Source of the DNA: Natrononativus amylolyticus
Lineage (GTDB): Archaea > Halobacteriota > Halobacteria > Halobacteriales > Natrialbaceae
Direction of reading: 5' to 3'
Length of the DNA stretch: 64,000 bases
Assembly (NCBI RefSeq): GCF_024362525.1
Contig: NZ_CP101458.1
Coordinates: 1,860,001-1,924,000, forward strand
Positions within the stretch are counted from its first letter, which is position 1; each line of letters opens with the position of its first letter. The notes beneath the pieces were generated by a model. That model did no database searches and had not been told where the DNA came from. It worked only from the letters and a program-made list of their open reading frames with translations. Positions 1-6,464 of this stretch are shown one piece after another. The position numbers were made by a program, and so were the translations under genes.

Positions 1-753
1 ACGGTTGCGATGAGCCACGGTGAGTACCCCGTCCCGGCGCCGGCGGTCGTCGAACTCGCCGAGCGAGCCGACTGGTCGCTCTCCGGCGGTCCCGTGGAGG
101 CCGAACTGCTCACCCCCACGGGAGCCGCTATTCTGGCACACGTCGCCGAGGGCGTCGAAACGCTCCCGGCGCTCTCGGTCGAGGCCTCGGGCTACGGCGC
201 GGGCGGCTACGATCTCGATCCCCACCCGAACGTGCTCCGGGCGCTCGTCGGCGCCGACGCGGGGACGCTCCGTCGCGAGGAGATTTCGGTGCTCGAGACG
301 AACCTCGACGACGCGACACCGGAGGTGCTGGGCGGACTCCAGGAGACCCTCTCGCGCGTGGGCGCACGAGACGTCTCGATCCTCCCGGCGACGATGAAGA
401 AGTCCCGCCCGGGCCACCTCGTGAAGGTGATCTGCCGCCCCGAGGACGCCGAACGGGTCGCCCGCCGGCTCGCGGAGGAAACGGGGACGCTCGGGGTTCG
501 AGACGCCGGCGCGACGCACCGCTGGGTCGCCGACCGGGAGTTCGAAACCGTCGCGATCGAACTCGAGGGCGAGTGCTACGAGGTCGCAGTGAAAATCGCG
601 AGCGATACCGACGGCGAGGTGTACGACGCGAGCGCGGAGTACGATGACGCGGCGCGTGTGGCTCGAGAGACCGGGCGATCGGTTCGAGACGTCCTCGAGC
701 GAGCCGAAAGAGCGGTTCGGGAATCCTCGAAATCCACGGACGCGTCGCAGTAG
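1..753 (+). CDS. larC: LarC-type nickel insertion protein (5' truncated by window)
   Basis: The reading frame is open from the first base, so the true start lies outside the window; 250 residues are visible. The HGEYPVPAPA segment near the visible start and the LETNLDDATPE motif around residue 100 are hallmarks of the LarC family. LarC inserts nickel into the pyridinium dithiocarboxylate pincer nucleotide, the cofactor of lactate racemase and related enzymes. Only the C-terminal two-thirds is visible. No larA, larB or larE is seen here, so the client enzyme must lie upstream or elsewhere. The next gene is convergent, with a gap of 18 bases. Confidence 0.88.
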   Translation, partial: TVAMSHGEYPVPAPAVVELAERADWSLSGGPVEAELLTPTGAAILAHVAEGVETLPALSVEASGYGAGGYDLDPHPNVLRALVGADAGTLRREEISVLETNLDDATPEVLGGLQETLSRVGARDVSILPATMKKSRPGHLVKVICRPEDAERVARRLAEETGTLGVRDAGATHRWVADREFETVAIELEGECYEVAVKIASDTDGEVYDASAEYDDAARVARETGRSVRDVLERAERAVRESSKSTDASQ

Positions 754-771
754 GTTCGCGACGACCGTCGG

Positions 772-1164
772 TTACTCGTCGTCGCCGGGCAGCGAAATCG
801 TGACGTTCGCGGTTCCGTCGGTTCCGTCGGCCCCGTCGCTACCGATCGACGTCGCGTTCACCGACGTCGAGTGGGAACTCGAGGACGTGGTCGACTCGTT
901 GACGTCCGCACCGTCGGAGGCGGTCTGGGTGGATACCGTAACGGTGCCGTTCGTCTGCGAGGCGTTCTGTGCGACGGAGACGGACGTGCCGGCGTCGCTC
1001 GAGGCGTTCTGAGTTATCGTGACGTTCCGGTCGGCGATCGAGTCGTTCACGACCACCGACTCGCCGTCCTCGCCGTCGGTTCCGGTGTCGGCGGCGATCG
1101 ACCCGAACCAGACGAGGCTACTCAACACGACGATCGACAGAACGGCTGCTGTGAGTTGTTTCAT
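772..1164 (-). CDS. Secreted Q/N-repeat protein, possible curlin-like fibre component
   Basis: This is a 130-residue protein with an N-terminal hydrophobic signal (residues 1-25, MKQLTAAVLSIVVLSSL). The mature part is rich in Ser, Thr, Asn, Asp and Gly, with repeated VTITQNAS, VSVAQNAS and VTVSTQTA strands about 12-14 residues apart. That alternating pattern with a fixed Gln resembles short beta-solenoid or curlin-type repeats. The C-terminus carries DGADGTDGTA. The chosen Met starts directly with a signal peptide; the longer frame upstream is unlikely. It is the end member of a group of five secreted Q/N-rich genes. Function unknown; the fibre idea is inference from the repeat pattern and its neighbours. 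Confidence 0.6.
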   Translation of the reverse strand: MKQLTAAVLSIVVLSSLVWFGSIAADTGTDGEDGESVVVNDSIADRNVTITQNASSDAGTSVSVAQNASQTNGTVTVSTQTASDGADVNESTTSSSSHSTSVNATSIGSDGADGTDGTANVTISLPGDDE

Positions 1165-1372
1165 GTGTGTAGCGGGTGAGAAAAGGCAACCATACACAGC
1201 CATTTGAACACGTAGAACTGTTACAGCTGTAGCCCGTGGCTTATTGGTTCTCGAGGTTGCAAGCGATTGGACCCACTCGTCGCCAAACGCCCACGCGTCA
1301 CAAGTAGAGACGGTGTCTACACTCGAAGGCCGGTAACACAAAAAAGAACGACTCCGTGATTACAGGATTCGA

Positions 1373-1762
1373 CTAGTCGTCGAAGCCAATGCTGAAGTTG
1401 AAGTCACCGCCGTCGCCACCGTCACCGCCGAACGCGTACTGATCGACGTCGGCGTAGTTGGTCTGCTCAACTGCCTGGCCCTGGTCCACGATCGACGCGG
1501 CAGCAGCACCGCCGCTATCGTAGCCCTTCTTGTGGTCGTCGCCGTCACCGACCGCGACCGCGGAGGATGCGCCGACCTGCGCGTTGTTGTTCTGCTGGTT
1601 CACCTCCGCTGCGTTGACCGCGTCGCCGCCGTCGCCGCCGTCACCGCCGAGATCGATGTCGATCTCGGTGTGGCTGTCCGCCGCCGCTGTTCCGGCGAAT
1701 CCCATGAACATGAGACTGCCAACCATTGCTACCGTCAGCATAACCGTGATTGTGCGTTTCAT
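1373..1762 (-). CDS. Small secreted Q/N-rich repeat protein, paralogue 1 of 3
   Basis: The product has 129 residues. A Sec signal peptide (about residues 1-28, ending GTAAADS) is followed by an acidic alternating segment TEIDIDL, a GGDGGDGGD block, the core VNQQNNNAQVG, a linker DGDDHKKGYD, a second core QGQAVEQTNYADVDQ, another GGDGGDGGD, and a tail FNFSIGFDD. The two cores match the two halves of the repeat unit of the large protein encoded at 3924-5534, and the DDHKKG linker also occurs there. It is nearly identical to the next two paralogues in the signal peptide and first core. Predicted to be exported and to assemble with its neighbours; this is inference, as no function is known. Confidence 0.75.
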   Translation of the reverse strand: MKRTITVMLTVAMVGSLMFMGFAGTAAADSHTEIDIDLGGDGGDGGDAVNAAEVNQQNNNAQVGASSAVAVGDGDDHKKGYDSGGAAAASIVDQGQAVEQTNYADVDQYAFGGDGGDGGDFNFSIGFDD

Positions 1763-1763
1763 T

Positions 1764-1950
1764 TGTGATCATCGGGCACGTCGTACGGGTGAGCGGGTAC
1801 GGCCGTCGCTACGGATCAGATCCGTAGCGAAGCCGCCGCTCGAGGCCGAATGGCGCGGTCAACCCGTTGTGGCACGGTGCCCACTCACCACTCAGCACGG
1901 AGTTTGACTTGAACCCAAAGGGCAGTTTCAGGACACATCAACCGATTAGA
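1764..1950 (-). repeat. Duplicated upstream region, copy A (upstream of paralogue 1)
   Basis: The DNA upstream of this paralogue is repeated upstream of the second paralogue. Shared parts are a GTGATCA-GGGCACG segment next to the start codon, a CGGTCAACCCGTTGTGGCACGG segment near the middle, and, on the gene's strand, CTAATC-N14-GAAACTGCCCTTTGGGTT about 150 bases before the start codon. The outer block probably holds the promoter and regulator site, leaving a long 5' leader; no standard TATA box was found near the ATG. The remaining 215 bases up to the next gene are AT-richer and show no gene. Confidence 0.6.
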
Positions 1951-2165
1951 GCGCGAAAAGCATGGCCCTGACTCGAGTTACGTATTCCTACAGCGGTATG
2001 AGAGGTTACGATATATGTTCTAAAAATATCTTTCCAGTAGATGGTCTGGGGCACAACATCTCCCGGAATATACGACGTTCAGAACGGAGGCTTCTCGACG
2101 ACTGGACGACCGGCTACGATGCTCGCTTCGCCACAAAAATTGGAAACCGGTCGAACTACTACCGC

Positions 2166-2528
2166 TTAGGCTAAGAATCCGAGGTCAATGTCGATGTCGA
2201 CGGCACCGCCGTCGCCGCCGTCACCGCCGACAGCGACCTGGTCGACGTCAGCCTCGTTGTACTGGGAGACGTACTGTCCCTGGTACACTCCTGACGAGGC
2301 GGCGCTGTCGTCACCGTAGCTGGCTGCCGACGATTCGCCGATCTGTGCGTTGTTGTTCTGCTGGTTCACCTCAGCCACGTTGACCGCGTCGCCGCCGTCG
2401 CCGCCATCGCCGCCGAGGTCGACGTCGATTTCGGTGTGGCTGTCCGCTGCAGCTGTTCCCGCGAGCCCCATGAACATGAGACTGCCAACCATTGCTACCG
2501 TCAGCATGACCGTGATTGTGCGTTTCAT
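2166..2528 (-). CDS. Small secreted Q/N-rich repeat protein, paralogue 2 of 3
   Basis: The product has 120 residues and the same layout as its neighbour: Sec signal peptide ending AAADS, TEIDVDL, GGDGGDGGD, the core VNQQNNNAQIG, a Ser/Ala-rich linker, the second core QGQYVSQYNEADVDQ, GGDGGDGGA and the tail VDIDIDLGFLA. The N- and C-terminal parts mirror each other (acidic strand, then Gly-Asp block, then Q/N core). DNA identity with paralogue 1 is highest over the signal peptide and first core and extends into the upstream region, so gene and promoter were duplicated together. Probably an extracellular, self-assembling protein; function inferred only. Confidence 0.75.
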   Translation of the reverse strand: MKRTITVMLTVAMVGSLMFMGLAGTAAADSHTEIDVDLGGDGGDGGDAVNVAEVNQQNNNAQIGESSAASYGDDSAASSGVYQGQYVSQYNEADVDQVAVGGDGGDGGAVDIDIDLGFLA

Positions 2529-2529
2529 T

Positions 2530-2714
2530 TGTGATCAGTGGGCACGTTGTATGGGTGCGAGCACAGCCATCGCTCGAGGATCATTCCCTCACGTGACTGC
2601 CGCTCGCCGCCGAATGGAGCGGTCAACCCGTTGTGGCACGGTGCCCGCTCTTCACTCTGCACGGAGTTCGACTTGAACCCAAAGGGCAGTTTCGAAGCTC
2701 ACTTGTGGATTAGA
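2530..2714 (-). repeat. Duplicated upstream region, copy B (upstream of paralogue 2)
   Basis: This is the second copy of the upstream block. The CTAATC-N14-GAAACTGCCCTTTGGGTT element lies about 150 bases before the start codon, as in copy A, and the CGGTCAACCCGTTGTGGCACGG segment is also kept. Sequence between the conserved parts has drifted. Conservation of spacing as well as sequence argues for a functional promoter or operator rather than a passive duplicate. Confidence 0.6.
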
Positions 2715-2943
2715 CGGAGAAACGGACGGTCCTACTTCCGGTCATCTATTGCTACATGTGAATAACCAGTGGAGATATTCAATTGCGATATGTGGTTGAT
2801 GAGTAGCTATCAATGCTGTGTATTTGTCAGCCAGTACTAACAGTAGTGAAAAATAACAACGCTGGCACTATACCAGTCTAACCACCAAAGTATCACCCCA
2901 TCTTTCGTCAATCTAGAAAATAATTAAAAATCAATCGATGGTG
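2715..2943. other. AT-rich spacer between paralogues 2 and 3
   Basis: This spacer is clearly richer in A and T than the surrounding DNA, with runs such as GAAAAATAACAAC and AATAATTAAAAATC. No open frame with coding character and no clear hairpin were seen. It may hold the terminator of the third paralogue and spacer DNA before the promoter block of the second. The base composition suggests either weak selection or an inserted fragment. Confidence 0.4.
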
Positions 2944-3315
2944 TCAGAGGCCAAAGACAAAGACTGGAAGGTCGATCTCAATCTCGGAATCGCCACCGTC
3001 GCCACCGTCGCCGCCGACAGCGAGCTGGTTCACGTTAGCGGCGTTCGTCTGGGAGACGGACTGCCACTGGTTCACCGAGGACGCTGCAGCACTGTGGTGT
3101 CCGACCGAACTCGCCGAGGAGTACCCGACCTGCGCGTTGTTGTTCTGCTGGTTCACTTGAGCGAAGTTGACTGCGTCGCCGCCGTCGCCGCCGTCACCGC
3201 CGAGTTGAACGTCGATTTCGGTGTGACTGTCTGCCGCCGCCGTTCCAGCCAGCCCCATGAACATGAGGCTGCCGACCAGTGCTACCGTCAGCATGAGTGT
3301 GAGTGCGCGTTTCAT
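2944..3315 (-). CDS. Small secreted Q/N-rich repeat protein, paralogue 3 of 3
   Basis: The product has 123 residues. The order is again Sec signal peptide, TEIDVQL, GGDGGDGGD, core VNQQNNNAQVG, linker GHHSAAASS, second core QWQSVSQTNAANVNQ, GGDGGDGGD and tail SEIEIDLPVFVFGL. It is the most diverged of the three: the linker has His instead of Asp/Lys and the tail is more hydrophobic. About 92 bases upstream, AACCC-AAG-N4-GTTTC partly matches the conserved upstream element of the other two. It is divergent from the large repeat protein. Presumed co-subunit of the same surface material; this is inference. Confidence 0.73.
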   Translation of the reverse strand: MKRALTLMLTVALVGSLMFMGLAGTAAADSHTEIDVQLGGDGGDGGDAVNFAQVNQQNNNAQVGYSSASSVGHHSAAASSVNQWQSVSQTNAANVNQLAVGGDGGDGGDSEIEIDLPVFVFGL

Positions 3316-3923
3316 TTCGTACCACAGGCACTACCCCTGAAATCGGTGTTAGATGGCTCCAGGGGCTGTTTGTGCCCAGATTGGTGGGACAGTGGGGTTC
3401 GGTATTAACCCGAAGTATCGTTTCTCCATCACTATCTCGAATTGGTCCTGAAACGGTCGACAGGGGTTCCGGAAACGACGACCGGCGCTCGAGGAGTCGG
3501 CAATTTCGCCTCGGCTGAACGACGGATTCGGCCGTCCTGTCGCCCGTACGAAGTGCGTATTTTTTCGAGACGGTCCCGTTCGGCCGCCGTAATTTCGGCC
3601 GTGGAACGGTTGGCGTTCGTGAGCGCCACGGAGCTGTGACCGAGACGGCGGTCGGACGGTCGATCGAGTCGGTCAGTGTTCGCCTCGAGTCAGTGTTCGA
3701 CGCGAAAACGATCGACGCCGCCACTGTAGCCAATGGCTAGAACGGTCTGGGGACCCACTCTTTCCGGGCCGAAATCACCGCATACCGCTCGAGTAGCACC
3801 CTCGTTCCGCCGTTCAACCCACAGATAACAAAGACTGTCTTCGGGATACGACCGTTTGCGCCGCATAGATTTCACACCAACGCGACCTTCACAGGAAACA
3901 GAACACAGGAACCAACGCACAGG
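3316..3923. other. Long intergenic region between divergent repeat-protein genes
   Basis: This region separates the minus-strand small paralogue from the plus-strand 536-residue protein and must hold both promoters. Several short open frames are present, but none has a signal peptide, a recognisable domain or coding-like composition, so none is called. AACCCGAAGTATCGTTTC, near 3407-3424, resembles the element upstream of the other two paralogues. Stretches with GATAAC and GCATAGAT lie near the large gene, but I cannot assign a firm TATA box. The length is unusual for this gene-dense window and suggests complex regulation. Confidence 0.5.
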
Positions 3924-5534
3924 ATGTTAGCACGATCACAGATCACGACAGTACTCGTCGTCGGGATGCTCATGCTCTCGATGGTAGCAATCGCGACGCC
4001 GGTCGCTGGCGACGACGCGAACGGCGCGACCGTACAGACGCTCGAGAACGGTGAAGACCTCTATCTGGTCTTCGGCGTCGATATCGGCGATCAGACGCTC
4101 GAGGAGTTCCTCGACGATCACCTGACCGACAACCCGGGCCACCCGGCCGAGGGACAGGACGCCGTTAGCGAGGTCATCCAGTACCAGGACGTCGAGCAGG
4201 TGAACCTCAACGAGGAGGGTGCCGCGGTCTCGATTTCGATCGACGGCGGCAACGCGACGGCGATCCAGGAGGTCAGCCAGCAGAACAACAACGCGCAGGT
4301 CGGCGAAGCGGTCGCCGAGAACCAGGCGTTCGACTCCCAGAGCACCCAGTTCGAGAACGTCGGCACCGTCCACATCGTGATGGGCAACGGTGACGGCCAG
4401 CAGTTCTCCGGCTGGGGCGTCGCTGACTCGAAGACGGGCGAGCCGACGGTGACCCAGAGCGCCGAAGCGGCGGTCTCCCAGTACCAGGACGTCACCCAGG
4501 TCAACTACGCGGAACAGACGACCGCGTTCGCGTTCGCGGAGAACGAGAGCGAGGCCGTCGCCTTCCAGCAGATCTCCCAGGCGAACCAGAACCTCCAGGA
4601 GGGAGCGGCGAACGCGACCAACGTCTACGAGGCGCCCGCGACCGCAGCCCCGACGAACGAACACTACAAGAAAGACCCCGGCATCTCGCCGAAGTACGAC
4701 TACAACGGCGACGACGGTGACGGCGTCTCGCAGGATGCAGCCGCGTCCGTCGAACAGGGCCAGGACGTCGAGCAGGCGAACGTCAACGAGGCGGGCGCCG
4801 CGGTCGCCATCGCGGTCGGCGACGGCTCGAGCGCGACCGCAGTCCAGCTCACCGAACAGACCAACATCAACGAACAGCTCGCGAGCGCGGACGCGGTGAA
4901 CGTCCTCGCCGCGATGCCAGGCATGAACGTTGCAACCGCGGACATGGACGACAACGACGTCGTCTCGACGCAGACGGAACGCGTCGACGGCGACGACCAC
5001 GACAAGAAGGGCGACAAGAAAGGCGACGACGGCGTGAGCCAGGCTGCCGACGCGAGCGTCGCCCAGTACCAGGAAGCCGACCAGTTCAACATCAACGTCC
5101 AGAGCTCCGCCGTGGCCGTCGCCACGAACGAGAGCACCGCCACGGCCATCCAGCTGATGTACCAGACCAACTACAACGCGCAGGTCGGCGCCGCCGACGC
5201 CTGGAACGTCTACCAGGGAGGCGCCACCCACGGCGGACTCGTCTACACCGAGGAGACCACGGTCACCCTCGGCGGCGACGAACTCACCGACAACTCGATG
5301 ATCGCGTTCGACTACGACGGCACCGACAGCCAGCTCAACGACGTCGAACAGCACTCGAGCGCCACGATCGAACAGGCGCAGTTCGTCGGTCAGCAGAACT
5401 TCGTCGAGCAGTCCGCGGCGATCGCCGTCGCCGACGACGGCGGAGACGCGACCTCGAGCCAGATCATCATGCAGGAGAACCGCAACGTCCAGTACACGGC
5501 CGTCGGCTCCGGCGGCGTGTTCGCGGCGCCGTAA
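3924..5534 (+). CDS. Large secreted protein with five Q/N-rich curlin-like repeats
   Basis: The product has 536 residues. Residues 1-29 form a signal peptide (cleavage probably after TPVAG). Residues 30-79 are a unique acidic head. Five repeat units of about 55-60 residues follow, near 80-138, 180-235, 270-330, 373-430 and 478-530. Each has the form Q-x-Q-x-V-x-Q-x-N, an Ala-rich alternating strand, then A-T-A-x-Q-x3-Q-x-N-x-N-x-Q. Regular Gln and Asn at strand turns resemble curlin repeats and predict a stacked beta structure. Linkers are acidic with Lys pairs (DDHDKKGDKKGDDG). No membrane anchor or sorting signal is seen. It is likely the major or nucleating subunit of an extracellular fibre with the small neighbours; that role is inferred. 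Confidence 0.75.
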   Translation: MLARSQITTVLVVGMLMLSMVAIATPVAGDDANGATVQTLENGEDLYLVFGVDIGDQTLEEFLDDHLTDNPGHPAEGQDAVSEVIQYQDVEQVNLNEEGAAVSISIDGGNATAIQEVSQQNNNAQVGEAVAENQAFDSQSTQFENVGTVHIVMGNGDGQQFSGWGVADSKTGEPTVTQSAEAAVSQYQDVTQVNYAEQTTAFAFAENESEAVAFQQISQANQNLQEGAANATNVYEAPATAAPTNEHYKKDPGISPKYDYNGDDGDGVSQDAAASVEQGQDVEQANVNEAGAAVAIAVGDGSSATAVQLTEQTNINEQLASADAVNVLAAMPGMNVATADMDDNDVVSTQTERVDGDDHDKKGDKKGDDGVSQAADASVAQYQEADQFNINVQSSAVAVATNESTATAIQLMYQTNYNAQVGAADAWNVYQGGATHGGLVYTEETTVTLGGDELTDNSMIAFDYDGTDSQLNDVEQHSSATIEQAQFVGQQNFVEQSAAIAVADDGGDATSSQIIMQENRNVQYTAVGSGGVFAAP

Positions 5535-5616
5535 CGACTCGGGAACCGCCTCGACTGCAACCGATTTTCTCCATTATTCGCCGCCCGTAGCGACGCGGCC
5601 GGTCGTCGACCGACCG

Positions 5617-6366
5617 TCAGTCCGTCGTCTCACCGGGCGCGTCGTCACGGTGGACGGCGAGGGCCTCGTCGATCGTCAACTCGCCGGCGGCCACGCGCCG
5701 GGCGAGCAGTTCGTCGATCGCTCGGTTCGTCTCGCTCCGTTCGCGCGAGCGGTCCTTGATCACCTGTAGCTCGCCGGCCGTCGGCTCGATCTCGCGGTTG
5801 TCGACTACCTCGCCCTCGAGTCTGGCGATGTTGACCGCGGCGAGGACGTCGCCCATCCCCCGCGAGCCCGTTCCGAGGTAGGGGGTCGTCCCCGTCTCGT
5901 CGACGAGTTCGACGCGGACGTCCTCGAGATCGTTGATCAGCGTCGCCCCCTCGAGGCGGGCGCCGTCGCCGATGCGGACGACCGGATCGGCGGCTTCGGC
6001 CGCCTCGCGCTGGATCACGTCGACCGTGTCGGCCAGCGGGACGTGGAAGGCGGCGACGACCATCTCCCCGGAGAGGATCGCGACGCCCGGCTTCCGGCCG
6101 GGGTCGACGCCGATGATCGTTCGTCCGTCGTCCCCGCGAAGGGCGGTGAGCGCGCGGTCGACGCTGCGTCGGGGCTCGCCGGGTTCGGCGACGACCGTCA
6201 CGACGTCGTCGAACGCCCCGGCGTGTGCCGCGCCGGTGACGACGACGGACGTCGCCCCGGGGAGGTCCTCGCCCGGTTCGACGGTCGTGAACTCGACGCC
6301 GCGCTCGCGCAGTTCGGTGACGACCTCGTGGTACACTTCGAAATCTTCCGTCGCGACGACGATCAC
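5617..6366 (-). CDS. RuvC/RNase H-fold protein, putative nuclease divergent from radB
   Basis: The product has 249 residues. Residues 1-80 look like a small Rossmann-like alpha/beta region. Residues 83-185 look like a RuvC-type RNase H fold: IIGVDPGRKPG gives the first catalytic Asp (D88), LVDETGTT gives an acidic residue in the second position (E157), and GMGDVLAAVNIA gives the last Asp with the D-x3-A-x3-A spacing of RuvC-like enzymes (D173). The C-terminal 60 residues are charged and helical. It is divergent from the RecA-family gene radB, with only 98 bases between the starts, which fits a recombination or repair role. I know no assigned function; nuclease activity is inferred from the residues. 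Confidence 0.65.
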   Translation of the reverse strand: MIVVATEDFEVYHEVVTELRERGVEFTTVEPGEDLPGATSVVVTGAAHAGAFDDVVTVVAEPGEPRRSVDRALTALRGDDGRTIIGVDPGRKPGVAILSGEMVVAAFHVPLADTVDVIQREAAEAADPVVRIGDGARLEGATLINDLEDVRVELVDETGTTPYLGTGSRGMGDVLAAVNIARLEGEVVDNREIEPTAGELQVIKDRSRERSETNRAIDELLARRVAAGELTIDEALAVHRDDAPGETTD

Positions 6367-6464
6367 GCAGGGAGTTGGGTACCCGACGGAATAAGCGTGT
6401 TCGCCCGCCGCCGGGGAACCGATCGTTTCGGGAGGTTTTTCCTCACCACAGCCGAAGGACGACC

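Follow-up and report, generated by a model that had tools for sequence, protein, structure and literature searches.

Do the five consecutive genes between 772 bp and 5534 bp of the stretch analysed here encode an extracellular fibre and, if so, of what kind? The stretch, hereafter the window, is 64,000 nucleotides of the chromosome of the haloarchaeon Natrononativus amylolyticus (contig 1, 1860001–1924000; the whole genome is 3.99 Mb in three contigs). A first-pass annotation had described all five genes as encoding secreted proteins with Gln/Asn repeats and had proposed a possible curli-like system. We consider, with about even confidence, that the locus represents a haloarchaeal secreted cross-beta surface or matrix fibre system whose subunits have five layers or one and which includes an anchored form; kinship with curli is not borne out. 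The coordinates and reading frames of that annotation were right, and reading the sequences revealed a hydrophobic, secretion-type N-terminus on each of the five proteins, which we have designated g1 to g5. The annotation had not recorded orientation: g1–g4 are on the minus strand, divergent from g5 on the plus strand.

772–1164, minus strand: g1, Ser/Thr/Asn-rich small secreted protein of 130 amino acids without the doublet repeat; a probable companion by position
1373–1762, minus strand: g2, small secreted protein of 129 amino acids; B half-repeat at amino acids 53–73, A half-repeat at 89–103
2166–2528, minus strand: g3, small secreted protein of 120 amino acids; B half-repeat at amino acids 44–71, A half-repeat at 77–91
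2944–3315, minus strand: g4, small secreted protein of 123 amino acids; B half-repeat at amino acids 53–71, A half-repeat at 77–91, with flanking GGDGGDGG blocks
3924–5534, plus strand: g5, large secreted protein of 536 amino acids with five doublets of approximately 59 amino acids and no C-terminal anchor

Analysis of g5 with a doublet profile whose training set excluded the window sequence gave 314.7 bits and five matches (amino acids 81–135, 180–237, 272–330, 375–432 and 479–527); the top score of 1,000 shuffled controls was −0.9. The five-fold repeat, already counted in the annotation, is far beyond chance. The doublets were delimited as follows.

4161–4337, plus strand: doublet 1, amino acids 80–138
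4461–4637, plus strand: doublet 2, amino acids 180–238
4737–4916, plus strand: doublet 3, amino acids 272–331
5046–5222, plus strand: doublet 4, amino acids 375–433
5355–5531, plus strand: doublet 5, amino acids 478–536, reaching the C-terminus

The doublet consensus is A.V.Q.Q.V.Q.N.N.Q, an Ala-rich stretch and ATA.Q...Q.N.N.Q. An alignment of 38 large proteins, in which the homologues were 38–57% identical to g5, showed the Gln/Asn columns to be invariant or nearly so in every doublet. The first half (A; Q.Q...Q.N) and the second half (B; Q...Q.N.N.Q) are spaced 29–30 residues apart; Ala-rich stretches lie between the two halves and after the second, and the linkers joining the doublets are acidic, long and variable in length. 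Conservation has a period of two, with lag-2 autocorrelations of 0.67 (A half) and 0.81 (B half), lag-1 autocorrelations of −0.77 and −0.82, and permutation p values of 0.004 and <1e-5, respectively. Such alternation is evidence of extended strands buried on one face, and it does not depend on any predicted structure. Every one of the 104 large proteins that the profile identified had exactly five doublets; a phylum-wide search again gave five matches per copy, and ten in the window's own genome. Unanchored forms end in their last doublet, which reaches the C-terminus with no cap domain after it.

The small proteins g2–g4 each carry one A half-repeat (9–14 bits) and one B half-repeat (11–14 bits), against 1.7 bits (A) and 1.9 bits (B) at the 95th percentile of shuffled proteins; across the small proteins the two halves occur in either order. 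The expectation of one large and several small components built from Gln/Asn-ladder repeats was therefore borne out, at five doublets versus one. It did not extend to g1, which is Ser/Thr-rich and scored ≤0.3 with the half-repeat models, so the claim of Gln/Asn repeats in all five genes stands for g2–g5. Two small-gene calls from a first clustering (L072, a short open reading frame; L099/L100, long ones) had no convincing repeat and were excluded from the evidence. As a separate observation, g2–g4 (window 1373–3315) and several relatives have GGDGGDGGD blocks on both sides of the repeat, which could bind cations or mark the edges of the unit.

A second large copy, 53% identical to g5, was found on the second contig of the genome (L068:4669–6525, minus strand). 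Its tail matched the PGF_CTERM model TIGR04126 at 36.5 bits (cut-off 24.5), and the genome also encodes archaeosortase A (ArtA; TIGR04125, 320 bits). The C-terminus of g5 reads ..GVFAAP and had no PGF-CTERM match in Pfam or NCBIfam. The annotation had seen no sortase or membrane anchor; this holds for the window copy only, because the genome has both a PGF-CTERM copy and archaeosortase A. Like archaeosortase A substrates, many homologues carry the PGF-CTERM tail, which informs only on membrane fixation of the anchored form. A tree of the 38 large proteins placed a twin-arginine (Tat)-like form with a Lys-rich tail (n = 3) in one clade and the PGF-CTERM form (n = 10) in two supported groups; the remaining 25 were unanchored.

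AlphaFold2, run on g5 with the alignment, gave a mean predicted local distance difference test (pLDDT) score of 53 and a predicted template modelling score of 0.44, with pLDDT at 70–80 in most doublets. The model consists of five similar layers with the same three strands (approximately 19, 7 and 26 residues) per unit. Single-chain modelling thus yielded predicted stacked beta layers of moderate local confidence for g5 but not for the small protein. Since AlphaFold2 over-predicts beta-solenoids, the g5 model was taken as weak support and the alternation and invariance of the repeat were given more weight. A Foldseek search of the PDB returned four weak matches only, FapC (9u4u) first and then a CsgA (E 0.8–1.0, template modelling score 0.05). 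VIA-align was uninformative (best Z 3.8 for SufBD and 2.8 for CsgA of Pontibacter, root-mean-square deviation near 8 Å), and a viral fold library gave nothing below E 0.014, which is chance level. PDB sequence searches with g5, doublet, full and small-protein profiles found no amyloid and no convincing match; the best hit, to the PhoQ sensor domain (E 0.007, 29 Gln/Asn-rich residues), was judged compositional.

From these results we propose a mechanism of which the parts are held with different confidence. Each doublet would fold as one three-strand layer, the layers stacking in register with the Gln/Asn ladders inside; this part is probable. Layers of separate molecules would stack end to end outside the cell, giving an extracellular cross-beta fibre or matrix as FapC and CsgA do, and on the present evidence this polymerisation has an even chance of being right. 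The PGF-CTERM form, processed by archaeosortase, might serve at the membrane to hold or start the fibre, whose ends might be added to, capped or tuned by the small one-layer proteins; both roles are suggested tentatively and are rather doubtful. General secretion routes alone would suffice for export, because no outer membrane is expected in a haloarchaeon and there would be none to cross.

Several points weigh against a fibre. Polymerisation is inferred, and a count that never departs from five layers would also suit a non-polymerising rod. Mean pLDDT of the g5 model is only 53, the small protein modelled by itself lacked beta structure (pLDDT 56), and with repeat sequences AlphaFold2 has a known tendency to predict too many beta-solenoids (PMC11795689); none of the Foldseek matches to solved folds was significant. 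Most PGF-CTERM and Tat-type copies had no detected small-gene partner nearby. Relatives in a Bacillota genome, described below, lack a signal peptide, and extracellular assembly is therefore not universal for the repeat.

The non-polymerising rod deserves most attention among the alternatives, and we regard it as unlikely. In it, g5 would be a monomeric five-layer beta-solenoid serving as an adhesin, stalk or surface-layer-associated spacer, and the small proteins would be one-layer caps or independent ligands. Exactly five doublets in every large homologue fits a rod well, CsgA being widely variable in repeat number (PMC3521004); so do the PGF-CTERM forms, which are membrane-anchored single molecules. 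FapC, however, has a nearly fixed number of repeats too and still forms fibres (PMC12392863). The unanchored forms, moreover, end in the last doublet with no cap domain, and the occurrence of one-layer small proteins in tandem is best understood if layers can join other molecules.

An intrinsically disordered Gln/Asn-rich acidic matrix protein, acting through hydration, weak association or condensation and not through ordered stacking, would account for the low mean pLDDT and the long, variable acidic linkers; it is improbable, as neither the conservation of Gln/Asn at alternate positions nor the exact repeat number is expected of a disordered polymer.

Comparison with known systems separates the cross-beta fibre proposed here from curli. 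No match to the curlin repeat (PF07012) was found for g1–g5 at E ≤10, among the 38 homologues or in the window's own genome; the same search found E. coli. Alignment of the doublet profile with curlin repeats in hhalign scored 10.7, within the range of column-shuffled curlin (95th percentile 11.7). CsgG (PF03783) had no match in the genome, with positive controls, and CsgA and CsgB did not score with the half-repeat models. Curli and the present family are alike in having secreted Gln/Asn-ladder repeats, large and small component classes and predicted stacked beta layers; they differ in that the curli repeat is Q.G..N of 19–23 amino acids and that of the present family Q.Q...Q.N.N.Q in 59-amino-acid doublets, their number fixed at five. 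That the locus is a true archaeal curli system, homologous to CsgA/CsgB, would be favoured by the Gln/Asn ladders, the major- and minor-like components and a divergent gene layout superficially recalling csgBAC/csgDEFG, but is highly improbable: homology is already contradicted at the sequence level by these searches.

A genuine curlin-repeat protein was observed in another haloarchaeon of the same family (genome G027, contig 1, approximately 1.329 Mb; L109:1300–2037, minus strand). It has eight repeats (PF07012, E 2.1e-45) and a signal-like N-terminus, and its half-repeat scores do not link it to the present family; G027 encodes both. It may be of the same kind as the single archaeal curli-like protein reported in PMC3521004.

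Judged by analogy, FapC is a better structural analogue than curlin and the closest in design. Its imperfect repeats are joined by variable linkers, and conserved Asn/Gln hold each repeat in a single cross-beta layer (PMC12392863). FapC and FapB of Pseudomonas share with the present family secreted, imperfect repeats of approximately 50–60 amino acids, variable linkers, conserved core Asn/Gln and a nearly fixed repeat number. One cross-beta layer per repeat, of Greek-key type, is established for FapC; here a layer per repeat is only predicted, with three strands per unit. The present family differs in its repeat motif, in having five repeats versus three and in the lack of a sequence match; it additionally has one-repeat proteins and a sortase-anchored form, has no known outer-membrane export operon and is only a candidate for FapC-type fibre formation. 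FapC was absent among the matches of the profile search at E ≤10, in which its homology was examined through PDB sequences only. Nothing like a fapA–F operon with a FapF channel was recognised in the window flanks, no search having been aimed at fapA–F. The Methanospirillum sheath protein SH is likewise archaeal and extracellular with an amyloid-like stacked beta architecture; by its description it is set apart by a different domain layout, with a cap domain and beta-arches forming rings and hoops (PMC10593813).

These comparisons raise the prospect, which we put forward as possible though short of an even chance, of a cross-beta fibre system of haloarchaea's own, independent of curli and Fap, comprising bricks of five layers, bricks of one layer encoded by divergent genes and a starter anchored by archaeosortase; a Bacillota lineage also uses the module. 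The literature searched describes no archaeal protein with the present repeat as a fibre subunit resembling those of Fap or curli. Haloferax volcanii biofilms stain with amyloid dyes, and the gene responsible has only been guessed (PMC4180959). The family offers a concrete, widely conserved set of candidates in cultivable genera, with subunit classes, an anchored form and upstream elements of its own. As a natural Gln/Asn ladder repeat adapted to high salt and fixed at five, it could also serve as a tool for exploring the limits of cross-beta polymerisation.

The large protein was present in 98 of 199 relatives, comprising 95 of the 121 genomes of the host's family and three of the 78 elsewhere in the order; the small family was present in 83 of the 199. 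Outside the window's family no match was found among 393 genomes of an archaeal phylum sample (E ≤1e-5), and viral contigs contained no relative of the repeat family. Haladaptatus, Halegenticoccus, Halomicrococcus and one Bacillota metagenome-assembled genome were further carriers identified by scanning GTDB species genomes. Haladaptatus salinisoli has five tandem repeat-bearing reading frames with approximately one doublet each (L201:7037–9020, plus strand), an arrangement that would fit either a split of the five-doublet protein or a state before its fusion. In the Bacillota genome, labelled Thermincola ferriacetica, three genes in tandem (L200:7998–10310, plus strand) each encode two doublets and lack a signal peptide; it was the only one of 398 genomes of its phylum with a repeat match. 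These genes have YheC/D-type ATP-grasp genes on one side and a PGA_cap gene on the other, a possible spore-envelope context. Contamination is an unlikely source: the repeat genes have 37% guanine-cytosine content and their flanks 36–38%, far from the haloarchaeal 61–66%, and the surrounding genes are of Bacillota type.

The divergent arrangement recurs. Among 54 distinct unanchored large loci with ≥4 kb of upstream sequence, a small gene was found upstream on the opposite strand in 32, with conservative small-gene detection, and in the other three orientations in none (within 5 kb). Conserved elements precede both gene classes.

1898–1929, minus strand: small-gene upstream element before g2, GAAACNG(N6)GGGTTCAAGT..
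2662–2693, minus strand: small-gene upstream element before g3, the same GAAACNG(N6)GGGTTCAAGT.. block as before g2
3815–3860, plus strand: large-gene upstream element, CAACNNACAGATAACAAAGNCTGTC..; GATAACAAAG core 100 bp ahead of the g5 start

The CAACNNACAGATAACAAAGNCTGTC.. element is common to the large genes, mostly 86–100 bp 5′ of the start, and its core occurred in 30 of 39 upstream regions. The block of the small genes, TGAAACCG..GGGTTCAAGT..GGGCAACGCGTCAC, differs from it and had two matches in the whole genome (≤2 mismatches allowed), before g2 and g3 only. These elements are candidate promoters or leaders. A sigma-70 scan of the intergenic region found no site, and terminator-like sites were near chance level.

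The cluster is flanked on the left by the end of a LarC-type nickel-insertion gene and on the right by an unassigned gene of 249 amino acids followed by a Rad51-family gene (radB by position). Relatives keep these neighbours: larC with an AAA ATPase to one side of the family, the radB region to the other. The family is mostly inherited vertically at one chromosomal site; in some relatives the small genes remain at larC and the large gene is approximately 27–34 kb away. No Pfam or NCBIfam family was assigned to g1–g5, and an Rfam scan of window positions 1–6400 gave nothing close to a gathering score. The ratio of nonsynonymous to synonymous substitution rates was approximately 0.1–0.26 for large-protein pairs and 0.24–0.29 for the small paralogues of the window; being well below one, these values place the repeat genes under purifying selection.

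The g1 protein, which has 31% Ser/Thr and eight N-glycosylation sequons, is probably a companion and not a member of the repeat family, because its relatives adjoin small repeat genes: this is true of its two best relatives (G057 and G012), and at several other loci g1-like secreted proteins with alternating Ser/Val/Gln adjoin small genes. Together they form a loose group of secreted proteins rich in Ser, Thr and Val, which have many sequons and stretches of alternating SVSV.Q and are encoded beside small repeat genes.

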